This document shows, piece by piece, positions 4,109 through 32,180 of a DNA stretch of 64,000 bases. Numbering within the stretch: position 1 is the first letter of the stretch; every line of letters starts with the position of its first letter. Both the position numbers and the translations under genes were made by a program. The notes beneath the pieces were generated by a model. That model ran no database searches and was not told where the DNA came from. It saw nothing but the letters and a program-made list of their open reading frames with translations. This stretch comes from Alphaproteobacteria bacterium. GTDB lineage: Bacteria > Pseudomonadota > Alphaproteobacteria > Micavibrionales > Micavibrionaceae. Location of the stretch: NCBI GenBank assembly GCA_009995595.1, contig JAACPE010000001.1, positions 744,001 to 808,000 on the forward strand, written 5' to 3'.

Positions 4109-4723
4109 TTATACCCCCGTACCCGATGTAACTTTTTTAATCTCAAGTACATCTGATTTCTTACGCGCCTGTTGGTCAGCCACTTTTTGCTTACGCACAC
4201 CTGGGCGCGTTCTGTGCGTGAGGACAATCGCCCCAATCATCGCCACAAGAAGAATCAGACCAGACACCTGAAAGGCAAAAACATAATCCGTATACAGCAC
4301 GCGGCCAATTGCCTCGGTATTGGTAATACCCTCTGCGCTTTGCACAAATGGTACGGCAATATTATCTGCCGCATTGGGCGCAAACTTCCACGCCGAGAAC
4401 ACCGCTATTAATTCCGCCAGCAATATCCCACCGATAATAAGACCCATAGGCACATATTGCATCGCACCCTTTCGTAGATCAGAAAAGCTGATATCGAGCA
4501 TCATCACAACAAACAAGAACAACACCGCCACCGCGCCTACATAAACAATCACTAAAATCATCGCAATGAATTCCGCGCCCAGCAAGATAAACAAGCCCGC
4601 GGCGTTAAAAAACGTCAGTATAAGAAAAAGCACAGAGTGCACAGGGTTACGCGCGGTAATCACCGCTATCGCGCTCACCAGAACAACCGCTGCAAAAAGA
4701 TAAAAAGCCAGACCCGTTAGCAT
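4109..4723 (-). CDS. nuoJ: NADH-quinone oxidoreductase subunit J
   Basis: This is a membrane-arm subunit of complex I with five predicted helices. I chose the ATG at 4723, giving 204 residues that begin MLTGLAFYLF. The open frame reaches to 4909, but those extra residues resemble no NuoJ and lie in a terminator-bearing spacer. The core motif VIVYVGAVAVLFLFVVMMLD is typical. There is no clear Shine-Dalgarno sequence in front of the ATG. The sequence TTATAA ends just before it, so a leaderless or very short-leader transcript is possible. Confidence 0.95.
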   Translation of the reverse strand: MLTGLAFYLFAAVVLVSAIAVITARNPVHSVLFLILTFFNAAGLFILLGAEFIAMILVIVYVGAVAVLFLFVVMMLDISFSDLRKGAMQYVPMGLIIGGILLAELIAVFSAWKFAPNAADNIAVPFVQSAEGITNTEAIGRVLYTDYVFAFQVSGLILLVAMIGAIVLTHRTRPGVRKQKVADQQARKKSDVLEIKKVTSGTGV

Positions 4724-4822
4724 AGTGTTATAACTTATTATTATGGGGTATTGAATTGACCCGTGTTTTAAAACAAACACTGTTCTAATCTGATACGCGC
4801 AAGCGTGCAAGGGCGCATAAAG

Positions 4823-4845
4823 AAAAAAAAAGGGATATCCCTTTT
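4823..4845 (-). terminator. Rho-independent terminator after the first peptide gene
   Basis: On the minus strand, AAAAGGG, the loop ATAT and CCCTTTT form a perfect stem followed by more T residues. It lies downstream of the peptide gene at 4896-5079 and upstream of nuoJ, so nuoJ-M probably needs its own promoter or read-through. Confidence 0.75.
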
Positions 4846-4895
4846 GATTTTTTGTGATTTGAATGAAAAATGCCTTTTGCGGCGTTATGATAAAT

Positions 4896-5079
4896 TTACT
4901 TGCCACCACCAGAAAGCTTGGGTGCGGCTAACCCCCCCAGCTTGGCCTCCACGCGCATCATGTTGTGCTTTACGACCACCAGTGCAAGCCATACGATAAC
5001 GACCGCCCTGTAATTCGCTATGGATACTAGCGGCAGAACGGAAAGTTTCACTAATAGGCATACGTGATATGAGTCCCAT
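4896..5079 (-). CDS. Small peptide of about 60 residues, frame broken at a G7 run
   Basis: Frame 1 starts at the ATG at 5079, preceded by a good GAGG ribosome site, and reads MGLISRMPISETF up to the glycine run. The paralogue at 5201-5386 ends GGLSAAPRS; here the matching end (GGLAAPKLSGGGK) lies in the next frame. The switch falls exactly at seven consecutive G (plus-strand C 4932-4938). Six G would give a single 60-residue ORF. The cause could be an assembly indel, a true mutation or slippage. The core MACTGGRKAQ parallels MACWGDRVAQ in the neighbour. No known family is recognised. Confidence 0.6.
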
Positions 5080-5150
5080 AACATCCTCAATGTTTTATAG
5101 CTAGACTCTATCAAACTTTAAAAAGGGAATGCAAATTTACGAGAAAGTAT

Positions 5151-5180
5151 AATGAAACTAAGGCCTTCGTGAGGCCTTAG
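5151..5180 (-). terminator. Terminator after the second peptide gene
   Basis: CTAAGGCC and GGCCTTAG form a perfect 8-bp inverted repeat with a 7-base loop (5158-5180). On the minus strand it is followed by TTTCATT. It lies 20 bases after the stop of the peptide gene at 5201-5386. Confidence 0.65.
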
Positions 5181-5200
5181 GGTATTCGATAAAAAACTAA

Positions 5201-5386
5201 TTAGGATCTAGGAGCAGCTGATAAGCCACCAGAGTTTCTGGCTGTAGCATATTTTTGTGCAACGCGGTCACCCCAACAAGCCATTCCATGCTTGCCTTCG
5301 GCGCGAGCTGCATTAATCATGCTTGCAGAACGAGGAGATGCCCCGCCCCACACTTCTCTTAGACCTGGTATACATACGTTTTTCAT
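5201..5386 (-). CDS. Small peptide of 61 residues, paralogue of the gene at 4896-5079
   Basis: The ORF starts MKNVCIPGLREVW and contains RSAS and the core GMACWGDRVAQ, ending GGLSAAPRS. About half the residues from MAC onward match the neighbouring peptide, so the two form a tandem family. There is no membrane helix; the peptide is rich in Gly, Ala, Ser and Arg and has two cysteines. The start is uncertain, because an in-frame upstream ATG would add 6 residues and no strong ribosome site is visible. A hairpin terminator follows. Function unknown. The pattern resembles short, quickly evolving genus-specific peptides rather than an enzyme. Confidence 0.6.
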   Translation of the reverse strand: MKNVCIPGLREVWGGASPRSASMINAARAEGKHGMACWGDRVAQKYATARNSGGLSAAPRS

Positions 5387-5510
5387 GATTTCACTATAGT
5401 ACAAACAAAAAGCAGTGTCAAGATATTTGCATATCAGAAATGCATAAATAGAATAGCAATCCTGACAATCACAGAATTACCAATTTATTTAGGAATAAAT
5501 ACTTATATCA

Positions 5511-5519
5511 TGCTATAAT
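5511..5519 (+). promoter_or_regulatory. Extended -10 promoter of an orphan plus-strand transcript
   Basis: TGCTATAAT is a perfect extended -10 element (TGn plus TATAAT). No good -35 is visible, as is usual for extended -10 promoters. It faces a gene-less stretch that ends in a terminator. Confidence 0.5.
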
Positions 5520-5525
5520 CACGTA

Positions 5526-5640
5526 CAAAGGCGTTTTTGCGCCATTTGACAAAAAAACGAACTAAAGGCGTTTTGTTTAATATCAAGGAGTTAACCCCAC
5601 CGCTCAAGCCCTCAGCGGAACGAACTGAAGGGGCTTTTAA
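5526..5640 (+). ncRNA. Candidate small RNA between nuoI and the peptide genes
   Basis: From a start about 7 bases after the extended -10, a transcript of about 115 nt would hold a GGCG/CGCC hairpin, a repeated AAAGGCGTTTT element, an AAGGAG motif not followed by a start codon, and a terminal hairpin with a T run. No ORF fits. It does not match tmRNA, SRP RNA, 6S RNA or any riboswitch I know. This is a sequence-based guess. Confidence 0.35.
5606..5638 (+). terminator. Terminator-like hairpin of the candidate small RNA
   Basis: AAGCCC plus TCAG pairs with CTGA plus GGGCTT across a short loop, followed by TTTT. An alternative stem, CCGCT with AGCGG at 5600-5618, overlaps it, so two exclusive folds are possible. 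Confidence 0.45.
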
Positions 5641-5683
5641 AAGGTAGTATCAGGGTTGTAATATAGGTATTAATCGCTAAAAC

Positions 5684-6166
5684 TTACCGATACGGCGCGT
5701 CGGCGGCCAGATTGCGTGCAATTTGCGCTTCCCAACGATCGCCATTATCAAGCAGTTTTTGCTTGTTATAATAAAGCTCCTCGCGGGTTTCCGTGGCATA
5801 TTCAAAATTAGGACCTTCAACAATGGCGTCCACAGGGCATGCTTCTTGGCACAGGCCGCAATAGATACATTTGGTCATATCAATGTCATAACGCGTGGTT
5901 CGGCGTGATCCATCGGCGCGCGGCTCAGCTTCAATTGTGATGGCTTGCGCGGGGCAAATGGCTTCGCACAGTTTACAAGCAATACAGCGCTCCTCACCGT
6001 TTGGATAACGACGCAGCGCATGCTCACCACGAAAACGCGTTGATAATGGCCCTTTTTCATAAGGATAATTAATCGTCACACGCGGCATGAAGAACATGTA
6101 TTTCAGTGTTAAGAGCATGCCCTTAACCACTTCAACCAATAAAAAGGAATTCAAAAAATGTTTCAT
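5684..6166 (-). CDS. nuoI: NADH-quinone oxidoreductase subunit I
   Basis: This ferredoxin-like subunit carries clusters N6a and N6b in the peripheral arm of complex I. Starting at the ATG at 6166 gives 160 residues; a TTG at 6184 is possible but less likely. Two CxxCxxCxxxCP motifs are intact, with cysteines at 61, 64, 67, 71 and 100, 103, 106, 110. The alphaproteobacterial signature [18 protein letters not shown] is present. The gene follows nuoH by 18 bases. Confidence 0.97.
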
Positions 6167-6184
6167 AAGAACTATATATCTCAA

Positions 6185-7207
6185 TTAAGGAAGCGCATCA
6201 AAGTAAACAAGCAGGCCAGACACGAGCACAACGTAAAACAAGGTAAACGGCAGGAATATTTTCCAGCCCAAACGCATCAACTGGTCATAACGATAGCGCG
6301 GAAATGTCGCCCGCGTCCAAATAAAGAAGAACATAACAAGCAAGGTTTTCAGTACAAACCAAATAACGCCGGGAACTATCGCCAGCGCCTCAATCCCAAA
6401 CGGCGGCAACCAACCACCAAGGAATAAGACAACAGTCATCGCCGACATCAAAATCATATTGGCGTATTCACCCAGAAAGAATAGCGCAAAAGTCATCGCC
6501 GAGTATTCAACCATGAACCCGCCTGTTATCTCTGATTCGCCCTCAGGCAGGTCAAACGGCGCGCGATTCGTTTCTGCCAAGATAGAGATCAAAAACACGA
6601 TCAGCATTGGAAACAATAAGATTTGAACCCATGTTGGACGATCCGCCGTGATAATTTCAGAAAGGTTTAACGTGCCCACACAAAGCAAAACACAAACAAT
6701 AACAAGGCCCATCGATACTTCGTAGGATACCATCTGCGAGGCAGAGCGCAGGCCACCAAGGAAGGCGTATTTTGAGTTTGACGCCCAGCCCGCCATGATC
6801 ACGCCATAAACGCCCATGGATGACACAGCGAACAAGTATAAAATACCGACATTAATATCCGCCAAAACCCATTTGGCATTAACAGGAATAACCGCCCACG
6901 CAATTAGCGCCAGCGTAAAAAGCAACATCGGCGCAATCACAAAGACAGGGCCATTTGACTGCGTCGGGACAATTGTTTCTTTGGAAAGAAGCTTAATTCC
7001 ATCAGCAATAGGTTGAAGCAAACCAAACGGCCCAACCGTATTTGGCCCCTGACGGCGCTGCATTGCGCCCATGACTTTGCGTTCAAAATAGGTGTAATAC
7101 GCCACAAATAAAAGGACAACGCCAATAATCGCGCCAATATGCGCCATCATAAACGCAAATGGCAGTCCATAAATAGTCCACAGGTCAGATGAGAAAAATT
7201 CAGTCAT
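6185..7207 (-). CDS. nuoH: NADH-quinone oxidoreductase subunit H
   Basis: This membrane subunit forms the quinone-binding chamber at the junction of the two arms of complex I. The 340 residues match the family. It shows the signatures [16 protein letters not shown] near the N-terminus and [16 protein letters not shown] in the middle. The gene is separated from nuoG by TerD-like, MazG-like and opposite-strand genes, so it probably has its own promoter. TTGGTT (7242-7247) and TATTAA (7218-7223), 18 bp apart on the minus strand, would place transcription start a few bases before the ATG. Confidence 0.98.
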
Positions 7208-7217
7208 GACGTTCTTA

Positions 7218-7247
7218 TTAATATGCTTTGCCCTATTTTTAAACCAA
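7218..7247 (-). promoter_or_regulatory. Possible nuoH promoter
   Basis: On the minus strand TTGGTT, an 18-bp spacer and TATTAA stand only 10 bases before the nuoH ATG. This would give a leader of only a few bases. The match is moderate and based on sequence alone. Confidence 0.35.
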
Positions 7248-7275
7248 TAAGATCAAATAAATACAATATTTTTAA

Positions 7276-7305
7276 TTGACATAATAATAAAAAATATATT
7301 ATAAA
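7276..7305 (+). promoter_or_regulatory. Promoter of the exported ClpP-like gene, leaderless arrangement
   Basis: A perfect -35 TTGACA (7276-7281), an 18-bp spacer and TATAAA (7300-7305) end 6 bases before the ATG at 7312, so transcription should begin at or next to the start codon. No Shine-Dalgarno sequence is present. The first 12 bases (TTGACATAATAA) are identical to the promoter at 31459. Confidence 0.65.
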
Positions 7306-7311
7306 CGCGCC

Positions 7312-8112
7312 ATGTTTAACGGCGTAAAACTCACAACCTTCTTTATGGCTTCCACAATGCTCGCAACATCTGCAATTGCTGATGTTCAAAGCCCCTTTTT
7401 TACAGAAGTTGCTGAGGATGATATACGCCAAATAACAACGAGCGACGCCGAAATTCAGGCCGCCTGTCCGCAATTACAAAATATTTCATTACAAGAAATA
7501 CCATTCATGCGAATCCCGATCATAAAAGGAACGCATGAGATTTATTTTCCAGCCGATTTAAATTTACGTGAATTCGAAGATAGAGAACGCGTTACAGAAA
7601 TTGATGCATTCAGATTTCAGATGCTTCAAGCTGCCGATGGATCAGAACAATTTTTCATGCATATTAACTTCTTAGGTGGTAGCACAGATTCTGGCTTTCC
7701 CGTTGTCTATGCGATGCTCGCCTCCTATGGTTCAATCACAACTTATGCATCTGAAAATGCTGCCTCTATGGCTTTTACAATGCTGATTTCAGGAACGAAT
7801 GGAAATAGATACGTAGATAATACCAGCTATCTCATGACACATGAAATAACAATGACAGATGAAAATGGTGCCACAATTCATGCAGATGATGCAGAAATTA
7901 CGGACAGGGAGTCTCTTGACGAATTAAACCAAGCATTAAGGCAACTTATAGAAGCAAACTCAGTCACAAAGATAACCCCCGAATGCACAGCGGCCTTAGT
8001 CCAGTCAAAAACAGATGTTCAAATAATGCCGCAGGACGCCGTTAAACTTGGCCTTATAGATTATTCAATCGACTGGGCAAATATAACCGCAATGATGCGA
8101 GTTACGCCTTAA
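7312..8112 (+). CDS. Exported ClpP-like serine protease
   Basis: This 266-residue protein has an N-terminal signal peptide with likely cleavage after SAIA (about residue 23) and a ClpP/crotonase-type core. INFLGG (118-123) stands for the INSPGG of ClpP. Ser152 in NAASMA, His177 in LMTHE and Asp235 in SKTD fit the catalytic triad. The distance from the second glycine to Ser (29) and from Ser to His (25) equals that in the ClpP of this same genome. The C-terminal IMPQDAVKLGLID matches the ClpP end motif. I infer a periplasmic or surface peptidase, possibly self-assembling. Its 3' end overlaps the convergent TerD-like gene by 11 bases. Confidence 0.8.
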   Translation: MFNGVKLTTFFMASTMLATSAIADVQSPFFTEVAEDDIRQITTSDAEIQAACPQLQNISLQEIPFMRIPIIKGTHEIYFPADLNLREFEDRERVTEIDAFRFQMLQAADGSEQFFMHINFLGGSTDSGFPVVYAMLASYGSITTYASENAASMAFTMLISGTNGNRYVDNTSYLMTHEITMTDENGATIHADDAEITDRESLDELNQALRQLIEANSVTKITPECTAALVQSKTDVQIMPQDAVKLGLIDYSIDWANITAMMRVTP

Positions 8113-8686
8113 CAGCGGCTTCAATTGCAGATTGACCAAGGGATTCAATAGGTTTTTGGATATTCTTTAATGTCCATGACCCATCTTCACCTTGCGTAAC
8201 ATAACCAACAACAAAGTGTTGCTGAGATGACGCATTATTTGAATTGGCCTCAAGGCCTTTCAGATCAATACTTAAAAATGGCTCTAAATTAATACCATCC
8301 ATAAAGGCACATGAGGCATTTTTTACTTCAGAAAACTGTACGCGATCATTAATAGAAACAATAAAAGCCATCGCCCGAATATCTCTTTCGGTTTCTTGCA
8401 AAGAGTCAAGATAGACAGTCACATCTTCATCCTCAAAATCACCGCCGCCTGATGTGCTATCACCACGGTGAAAGATTTTGCCTTTATACTGCTCACGTTT
8501 TGGCTCAAGAGGTGTAATAATATCGCACACTTCAAGATCTGCATTAAAAACGGCGCATGAAAGATCAAGGTTATGAGGCGTTAAGCCACCAAGAACACCG
8601 GTGCTTTTTTCATTAGGGTCCCAAGAAAGACCTACCATGAGCTTCTTTTGATCTGAAGAAAAATTAAGGGTAATAATATTACTCAT
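8102..8686 (-). CDS. TerD-family protein
   Basis: This 194-residue cytoplasmic protein of the TerD/tellurium-resistance family has a calcium-binding beta-sandwich fold. Family motifs are visible: LMVGLSWDP near residue 16, DLDLSCAVFN, HRGDSTSGGGDFEDEDVTV with the acidic cation-binding loop, and AFIVSINDRVQFSEVKNA. TerD proteins are linked to membrane and envelope stress. The start overlaps the stop of the MazG-like gene as TAATG, so it is translationally coupled in a nuoG-mazG-terD unit. Other ter genes are absent nearby, so classical tellurite resistance is not implied. Confidence 0.85.
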   Translation of the reverse strand: MSNIITLNFSSDQKKLMVGLSWDPNEKSTGVLGGLTPHNLDLSCAVFNADLEVCDIITPLEPKREQYKGKIFHRGDSTSGGGDFEDEDVTVYLDSLQETERDIRAMAFIVSINDRVQFSEVKNASCAFMDGINLEPFLSIDLKGLEANSNNASSQQHFVVGYVTQGEDGSWTLKNIQKPIESLGQSAIEAAVKA

Positions 8687-9090
8687 TACGCGGCCTCCTT
8701 TTTGGGTTTCGTGATGAACTTTGTCATATCGGGTTTGAAATAATGAGGGCCTTTCATGACCTTGCCATCGCCTTCGCGTCGAATGGGTTTTCCATCCGCG
8801 CCAAGCTTGGACATATTCGAGCGATGTACCTCGTTAAACGCATCCATTTTTATATTTTGTAAGCCAAAAGATAAAAAGGCACCATCGAGAACATATTGAA
8901 GGTCAATAAGCGCATCCAGCGTCTCGACAATATCATCGTTTTCAAGCGCCTCTTTCAGCTCATCGAGTTCTTCTTGGAGAAGATTAATACGAAGCTCTTT
9001 TGTCTGCATAGAACCCGTTGTCTGCTCAGACTCAACAGGCAAACCATAGGTTTCATGAAATTCTTGAACTTGGTCTAATGTTGTTTTCAT
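8686..9090 (-). CDS. MazG-like nucleotide pyrophosphohydrolase
   Basis: This 134-residue protein has the all-alpha NTP-PPase fold. The metal-binding helices show EELDELKEAL near residue 40 and ETLDALIDLQYV near 60, and the tail HRSNMSKLGADGKPIRREGDG is typical of phage-like and bacterial MazG-type enzymes. The likely role is hydrolysis of non-canonical NTPs to NMP and pyrophosphate. The start overlaps the nuoG stop as TAATG, indicating translational coupling. The exact substrate cannot be told from the sequence. Confidence 0.85.
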   Translation of the reverse strand: MKTTLDQVQEFHETYGLPVESEQTTGSMQTKELRINLLQEELDELKEALENDDIVETLDALIDLQYVLDGAFLSFGLQNIKMDAFNEVHRSNMSKLGADGKPIRREGDGKVMKGPHYFKPDMTKFITKPKKEAA

Positions 9091-31458: not shown

Positions 31459-31487
31459 TTGACATAATAAATAGTGATGCGTATTTT
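31459..31487 (+). promoter_or_regulatory. Promoter of the P-loop gene, leaderless arrangement
   Basis: TTGACA (31459-31464), a 17-bp spacer and TATTTT (31482-31487) stand only 6 bases before the ATG at 31494. Transcription would start at or one base from the ATG. No ribosome site is present. It shares TTGACATAATAA with the promoter at 7276. Confidence 0.65.
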
Positions 31488-31493
31488 CCTGCA

Positions 31494-32180
31494 ATGTCAG
31501 ACAACACGCAAAATTCAAAACAACCGCAATCTCTAACGATTACTTTTAATAGTGCTACAAGAGATGAATTATATGAATTTTTTACTGATTTAATAAAAAC
31601 GATACCAGAGGCGTATTTATTAAAACAATCAGAGCATCCATGCTTTATAATAGTGAACGGGGACGAGGCATCTGGAAAATCAATGCTTTGGGATATAGCC
31701 AGAGAAGTCCTCTTTGACCAGCATACAATTGAGGAAGAAAATAGCATAACCCAAGCGGGTTTAATAAAACAAAACCGTGACAACTTTCGGGACATTCGCG
31801 TATACGAAGCCTATGCGGGCATCTCAAAAACAAATATTTCTATGCGTTTAATTTGTGCGAATGCACACGCACTCAGTTCTGAGGAAGGCGTTTATGCGGA
31901 TAGAATTTTAAAACGTTTACAAGCACTCTATAAATCCTGCCTATCCTCACAATGGACAGCCGACCCAACGGCAGAGGATTTTATAATTCTTAGCAATGCA
32001 TTGCCTTTCATCGGTTTTGGGAAAGATACAGCACCTGTAGAAGTAAATATAGAAGGGCCGCATGATAGTTGGGAAGGCGCAAAAGGAAACTGGACGCGCA
32101 TAACAACTGTTACCTTCAGAAAGCCAATTTTAATAAACGCCGCCTATGAGACGGGGCTAGTAAATAAATACTCAATGTAA
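31494..32180 (+). CDS. Hypothetical P-loop protein (TsaE-like Walker A)
   Basis: This 228-residue cytoplasmic protein has a clear Walker A motif, IIVNGDEASGKSMLWD near residue 52, after a short helical N-terminus. The order resembles the small ATPase TsaE, but the rest does not fit well and the protein is longer. A C-terminal beta-rich part follows (EVNIEGPHDSWEGAKGNW). It is a plus-strand insertion between tig and clpP. The exact role is unknown; ATP or GTP binding is likely. The ATG is probably used leaderlessly, given the promoter spacing. Confidence 0.65.
   Translation: MSDNTQNSKQPQSLTITFNSATRDELYEFFTDLIKTIPEAYLLKQSEHPCFIIVNGDEASGKSMLWDIAREVLFDQHTIEEENSITQAGLIKQNRDNFRDIRVYEAYAGISKTNISMRLICANAHALSSEEGVYADRILKRLQALYKSCLSSQWTADPTAEDFIILSNALPFIGFGKDTAPVEVNIEGPHDSWEGAKGNWTRITTVTFRKPILINAAYETGLVNKYSM

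Follow-up and report, generated by a model that had tools for sequence, protein, structure and literature searches.

Here, we present an analysis of a gene for a ClpP-like protein, P0001, in a 64,000-nucleotide stretch of DNA (the window) from a bacterium of the family Micavibrionaceae (GenBank assembly GCA_009995595.1). Judging from its sequence and those of its relatives, we consider it reasonably probable that P0001 is a serine protease of the ClpP fold that is exported, works on its own, and has a predicted stabilising disulphide. P0001 does not stand alone: it belongs to a clade of ClpP-like proteins of the Micavibrio-like order (Micavibrionales), most of which carry predicted N-terminal export signals. 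At the sequence level, we show homology to ClpP, a conserved catalytic triad, cysteines that are absent from the cytosolic paralogues, loss of the docking Tyr and of an Arg, and a promoter of the predicted leaderless type.

The gene (7312..8112, + strand) is an intact open reading frame of 266 codons with an ATG start, and two congeneric genomes have homologues at this site. Residues 103-250 match the Pfam family CLP_protease at an E-value of 1.4e-14 and 54.9 bits (cut-off 20.2), which is far beyond chance, and the best PDB match using phmmer is MtClpP1 (5e-7). The window also encodes the ordinary cytoplasmic ClpP of the genome (30705..31352, − strand; TIGR00493 6e-100, 332.8 bits versus a cut-off of 308.6), here used for comparison; P0001 itself, at 34.7 bits, misses the 308.6-bit cut-off of this ClpP equivalog model. 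A preliminary description of this DNA had claimed a ClpP-like core in a 266-residue protein, a triad aligned with that of ClpP, two spacings identical to those of the window ClpP, and NFLGG in place of the NSPGG element, and all four claims were borne out. The predicted nucleophile Ser152 (7765..7767), the predicted catalytic base His177 (7840..7842) and the predicted third triad residue Asp235 (8014..8016) fall in the same columns as S109, H134 and D183 of the window ClpP; the distances from the second Gly to the Ser (29 residues) and from the Ser to the His (25 residues) are equal in the two proteins; and Gly122-Gly123 (7675..7680, like the triad codons on the + strand) end the NFLGG counterpart of NSPGG. 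The distance from Ser to Asp is 83 in P0001 versus 74 in the window ClpP, i.e., 9 residues longer.

AlphaFold gave no usable model from the P0001 sequence alone (pLDDT 32). With an 18-row alignment, in which P0001 was joined by 15 ClpPs from viral contigs, the window ClpP, and one homologue, all sixteen 10-residue blocks of residues 101-260 averaged a pLDDT of 70-90, and pLDDT was low over the first 100 residues. All 50 Foldseek matches listed for this model were ClpPs (best E-value 6e-11), and VIA-align superimposed it on ClpP with a Z-score of 19.1 and an rmsd of 3.0 over 167 residues. This comparison, proposed as a check in the preliminary description, thus returned the ClpP fold and no unrelated one; because ClpPs were part of the alignment, the predicted fold agrees with the homology rather than proving it independently.

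Conservation among homologues, proposed earlier as a further check on the triad, is high: in 43 ClpP-type rows (21 exported and 22 cytosolic), Ser and His are each present in 43/43 and Asp in 40/43, and the exported rows alone have Ser in 21/21, His in 21/21, and Asp in 19/21. These rows are a chosen set rather than a census; the degenerate cytosolic paralogue L088b, which has neither the Ser nor the His, was dropped beforehand, as were near-duplicate or redundant ClpP paralogues (L070:290, L072, L075, L077, L078, and L097) and the phage-like L098. Asp is replaced by Glu in L101 and by Asn in L353b, and the residue of L041 in this column depends on the alignment (Glu in one, Asp in another). 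In the seven-row alignment A4, which has a mean column identity of 33% and whose members all match CLP_protease at an E-value of 0.1 or better, Gly122-Gly123, Ser152, and His177 are invariant (7/7). The triad counts are this high although the relatives in group A are only 18-34% identical to P0001.

This retention bears on the first alternative, according to which P0001 is exported but is no protease, being instead a protein of the ClpP fold with a binding or inhibitory role, its triad kept by descent. Such a role would fit the very fast divergence of P0001, which is only 22-34% identical to the two other proteins encoded at the same nuo site in genomes where nuoH is 84-87% identical, and it would fit the disappearance of the glycine-rich strand following the His in group A. 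However, a non-catalytic protein should lose the triad, and the exported rows have kept Ser and His throughout and Asp in all but two while most other columns vary. We therefore regard this alternative as unlikely, and favour an exported protease.

Two further columns were compared with ClpP. In the column of the Tyr that belongs to the unfoldase-docking pocket of ClpP, Tyr is found in 0/7 rows of group A (His in P0001), and the Arg that precedes the catalytic Asp in ClpP is likewise found in 0/7 (Thr in P0001). Among 18 cytosolic paralogue rows, Tyr is also absent in 10 and Arg in 3; a missing docking Tyr was therefore rejected as a mark of export.

The N-terminus of P0001, MFNGVKLTTFFMASTMLATSAIA followed by D, resembles a Sec signal peptide (putative residues 1-23; 7312..7380, + strand), with cleavage predicted between AIA and D. 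The resemblance is modest: a crude signal rule is barely passed (mean hydropathy 1.21 versus a threshold of 1.2), and this rule passes 9 of the 52 window genes, at least two of which look unexported or membrane-spanning. The signal peptide claimed in the preliminary description, the absence of which would have spoken against export, accordingly stands as a modest, signal-like sequence. P0001 contains exactly two cysteines, both kept in its nearer relatives. Cys52 (7465..7467, + strand) lies in an ACPQL motif, and a Cys is found there in 5/5 A3 rows having the segment as well as in the N-terminal piece of the nuo-site gene of genome G004. Its candidate disulphide partner, Cys225 (7984..7986, + strand), is invariant in the seven A4 rows, and a Cys at most two columns away occurs in 9/21 exported and 0/22 cytosolic rows. 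Based on these cysteines together with the signal-like N-terminus, we consider the export of P0001 probable.

Other exported rows have a different pair of cysteines, at positions −6 relative to the Ser and −5 relative to the His (S-6/H-5), which P0001 lacks, carrying Cys52 and Cys225 instead. The S-6/H-5 pair is found in 9/21 exported versus 0/22 cytosolic rows (Fisher's exact test, 5e-4), and an even number of cysteines in 19/21 mature exported versus 11/22 cytosolic rows (p 0.007), or in 17/21 exported rows if cysteines of the signal peptide or lipobox are not subtracted (p 0.055); these p-values are rough and overstate the differences because the rows are related and the Cys pairs were seen before labelling. 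The exported and cytosolic labels were assigned by eye from the N-termini after some of the Cys pairs had been noticed, and L041, with a doubtful signal, was counted as exported. Two exported proteins, L100 and L403b, have the S-6/H-5 pair with the first Cys one residue off, and this first Cys occurs by itself in 10/22 cytosolic rows; L214, a paralogue in the same genome, and L089 have one mature Cys each, and L214 has no counterpart of Cys52 outside its signal-like N-terminus. According to PMC7678975, exported proteins favour even cysteine numbers in E. coli, and more weakly so in another Gram-negative bacterium. DsbB was found in the P0001 genome (5e-31).

If the N-terminus were not a working signal, P0001 could be a cytosolic accessory ClpP subunit that, like ClpR or ClpP2, enters mixed rings. 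The modest hydrophobic stretch could be read in this way, as could the existence of one clade member without an evident signal (L352:2091-2885); the signal peptide of the nuo-site homologue in genome G008 is doubtful as well. However, this sole signal-less clade member also lacks the conserved Cys225, and N-termini of the signal-peptide, lipobox, and signal-anchor types recur by eye among the relatives. The paired cysteines, the cysteine parity and the absence of both the docking Tyr and the Arg before the Asp likewise speak against a subunit of cytosolic rings, which we find quite unlikely; a predicted extracytoplasmic location remains our preferred reading.

Searching 142 genomes of the order with a three-member profile gave more relatives, and later rounds added others. 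In a tree of 43 ClpP-type rows, 14 rows, 13 of them labelled exported, lie beyond one long branch (length 1.28) with support 87/99, which is under the strongest grade of the tool; the tree has many long branches, and its details are unsure. Thus, the phylogeny that the preliminary description had proposed as a check sets the P0001 group apart from canonical ClpP. The 14 rows come from nine genomes: the genome of P0001 (2), G003 (2, in tandem), G004 (2), G008, G015, G017, G034 (2), G059, and G060 (2). Eight further exported-looking ClpPs (L060, L068, L071, L087, L089, L101, L356, and L404) lie among the cytosolic paralogues, and the export label changes at least three times on the tree, which is compatible with several gains or with one gain and losses. 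No clade members were recognised outside the order among the matches listed in a class search of 385 genomes with the A3 profile, in which the best match in another genome had an E-value of 1.5e-19 and the matches in other genomes were taken for ordinary ClpPs by frame length. L214, itself a clade member, reached only 3.5e-14 in this search, below many of these listed matches; diverged members could therefore hide outside the order.

Besides P0001, its genome encodes another ClpP-like protein whose N-terminus looks export-like, L214 (C2:10847-11662; L214:3830-4660, − strand). It has the triad and a counterpart of Cys225, adjoins glycerol-kinase-like genes by eye, and scores 19.0 bits against CLP_protease, under the curated cut-off of 20.2. 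In the congeneric genome G003, which is without a nuo-site copy, two exported-looking ClpP-like genes lie in tandem with a 4-base overlap (L403 on contig C35, 1039-1971 and 1968-2798, − strand). Two such genes are also adjacent in G034 (L353, 2308-3306 and 3415-4290, − strand); the product of one has a lipobox-like LSAC sequence, suggesting a lipoprotein form.

The preliminary description had treated the missing ribosome-binding site as an oddity. Indeed, no Shine-Dalgarno sequence was seen upstream of the P0001 ATG; however, a promoter TTGACA-N18-TATAAA (7276..7305, + strand) is placed with its −10 box ending 6 nt upstream of the ATG, and the mRNA is therefore predicted to start at or adjoining the ATG and to be leaderless. 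Of Markov sequences with equal composition, 0.03% have a promoter match this good at this place. The pattern TTGACATAAT-N20-30-ATG occurs twice in the window versus 0.01 expected, 11 times in the P0001 genome and 19 times in G060, while the reversed control occurs 0 times in both of these genomes and once in G008; 9 of the 11 motifs in the P0001 genome precede an open reading frame of at least 40 aa. With a motif of this kind repeated in the genome, the absent ribosome site would be an ordinary feature of the lineage, and what stands of the earlier claim is the absence of a Shine-Dalgarno sequence itself. Among the relatives, the promoter match is strong in L085 (11/12, as in P0001) and weaker in L084 (9/12), was not found at the corresponding place for L041 and L102, and lies too far upstream in L214; the idea that this promoter marks the entire clade was thus not borne out. 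We also rejected an export regulon, as most of the open reading frames printed behind the motif have no export signal by eye. One other gene behind a TTGACATAAT promoter (at 31459) lies divergently next to clpP in the window (31494-32180, + strand) and its product, 228 aa long, has a P-loop-like motif (GDEASGKS) and matches no Pfam family at 0.01; by eye, similar proteins are encoded behind this promoter next to clpP in G004 (contig C64) and G008 (contig C106), and elsewhere in G060.

P0001 is flanked on one side by a gene that we take to be nuoH (6185..7207, − strand; 84-88% identical in eight congeneric genomes, and 80% over a partial stretch in G009). On the other side lie a TerD-domain gene (8102..8686, − strand; Pfam TerD 2.2e-10) and a PRA-PH/MazG-like gene (8686..9090, − strand; Pfam PRA-PH 3.6e-12). 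Three of the 10 genomes of the genus have a ClpP-like gene in the gap from the PRA-PH-like gene to nuoH, transcribed against the direction of nuo: the P0001 genome (G000), where the TerD gene is at that site too, G004 and G008. In the seven congeners without it, the gap between these two genes is 9-117 nt, except for 595 nt, filled by a TerD gene, in G001. The G004 nuo-site gene spans a contig break, with a 55-base overlap of identical sequence between the two contig ends, and both a signal-like start and the ACPQL motif are found in the N-terminal piece of this gene; a second ClpP-like gene of G004, without an evident signal, lies between nuoI and the next nuo gene, presumably nuoJ. The three carriers are non-sisters, and at least three changes are needed to explain the occupancy of the site, whether or not these began with a single insertion. 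Third-position GC is low in the P0001 gene (7312-8112, 0.34) and in the TerD gene (8102-8686, 0.29), six other genes of the window having 0.40-0.52; such low values would be expected if the two genes are accessory.

The position inside the nuo locus, also noted earlier as an oddity, proved to be less unusual than it had seemed. Over the fetched loci, where measurable, the spacing ranges from −1 to 3108 nt between nuoH and nuoI and from 33 to 2692 nt between nuoI and nuoJ; extra DNA between the genes of this locus is therefore common in the Micavibrionaceae. The added genes include TerD, PRA-PH-like, and unknown genes between the subunit genes (window 4109-9090; loci L034-L053). Among the matches listed for the PRA-PH/MazG-like gene (8686-9090, − strand) are relatives of ∼48-57% identity in many Flavobacteriales and some Rhodobacterales, hinting that this nuo-operon gene may have spread horizontally.

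ClpP (MEROPS S14, PF00574, TIGR00493) and P0001 have in common the fold, the Ser-His-Asp triad, the Gly-Gly element, and the Gly-Ser and Ser-His spacings; unlike ClpP, P0001 has a signal-like N-terminus, no recognisable ClpP N-terminal region, Cys52 and Cys225, and a longer Ser-Asp distance, and it has neither the docking Tyr nor the Arg before the Asp. The S49 peptidases, including SppA, belong to the ClpP/crotonase superfamily, use a Ser-Lys dyad, and act outside the cytoplasm without ATP. A signal-peptide peptidase working in the manner of SppA would share the fold superfamily and, if P0001 is exported, the side of the membrane. However, the triad of P0001 is Ser-His-Asp, its match is to CLP_protease, with no Peptidase_S49 match up to an E-value of 1 (one A4 member matches Peptidase_S49_N at 0.088), and the genome has its own 617-aa S49 protein (Peptidase_S49 1.5e-75), which makes an SppA-like duty less likely still; we consider it highly improbable. 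That P0001 is a remnant of a phage ClpP-like head-maturation protease is barely credible: it shares the ClpP-type domain and matches such families weakly (phrog_94 1.3e-4; NF045542 6e-5, 23 bits versus a cut-off of 120; similarly phrog_133), but CLP_protease scores about nine orders of magnitude better, the adjoining genes are nuo, PRA-PH-like, and TerD genes and not phage genes, scans of viral contigs that reach only close relatives found none, and only 5 of 50,697 phage records have weak relatives (best 9e-7, 33% identity). Based on the weak PHROG and NCBIfam scores and the gene context, we rejected a phage origin, and a plasmid origin was rejected with only weak ClpP-type matches in 7 of 72,556 records.

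The stomatin protease 1510-N/NfeD1b also has a ClpP-type fold and acts without ATP. As reported in PMC10153343, the active form of 1510-N is a dimer; the protein uses a Ser97-Lys138 dyad and has membrane-spanning helices and an NfeD domain, the protease domain being put on the cytosolic side. P0001, by contrast, has no Ser-Lys dyad, membrane helices, or NfeD domain, has His177 and Asp235 at the ClpP positions, and gave no NfeD1b_N match, although two A4 members match weakly (best 0.0031). By analogy, the 1510-N dimer may serve as an example of a ClpP-type enzyme that acts as a small oligomer. We suggest that Sec takes P0001 over the inner membrane, that signal peptidase would cleave after Ala23, and that DsbA/DsbB would oxidise Cys52-Cys225, so that the N-terminal segment is linked to the C-terminal portion of the domain. 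P0001 might then form a small or single-ring oligomer, in which Ser152, His177, and Asp235 would cut peptides or unfolded proteins without ATP. Because its occurrence is patchy and its change fast, we suggest that its task is not housekeeping but accessory, e.g., dealing outside the membrane with protein that is foreign, comes from prey, or arises from stress.

Exported proteins of the ClpP/crotonase type are also known under COG3904 ('predicted periplasmic protein'); should the clade fall inside COG3904, its novelty would drop. PMC3091676, the one paper returned that names COG3904, calls it only 'hypothetical protein'. The serine-protease survey PMC2605481 reports 121 Clp-type proteins and uses 'signal peptide' and 'periplasm' for other proteins only. 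Open-access literature was searched for ClpPs that are exported, secreted, periplasmic, or extracellular, as well as for COG3904 and for ClpP in Micavibrio; no description of such a clade was among the papers listed, which is weak evidence of novelty.

More broadly, we tentatively raise the possibility that the Micavibrio-like order made ClpP, in possibly more than one event, into a family of secreted or surface enzymes free of the ATPase, with signal peptides, lipoboxes, or anchors and lineage-specific disulphides, and that these are now fast-evolving accessory extracytoplasmic proteases, perhaps directed against prey or rival cells; the lineage includes bacterial predators. ClpP is the textbook protease held in check by its closed chamber and by a gatekeeper that runs on ATP. 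If a clade does keep the ClpP triad while working outside the cytosol, it would show how the closed chamber is opened or replaced, with its many diverged natural variants at hand for testing this, and it would add an extra class of extracytoplasmic protease to the Micavibrio-like lineage.
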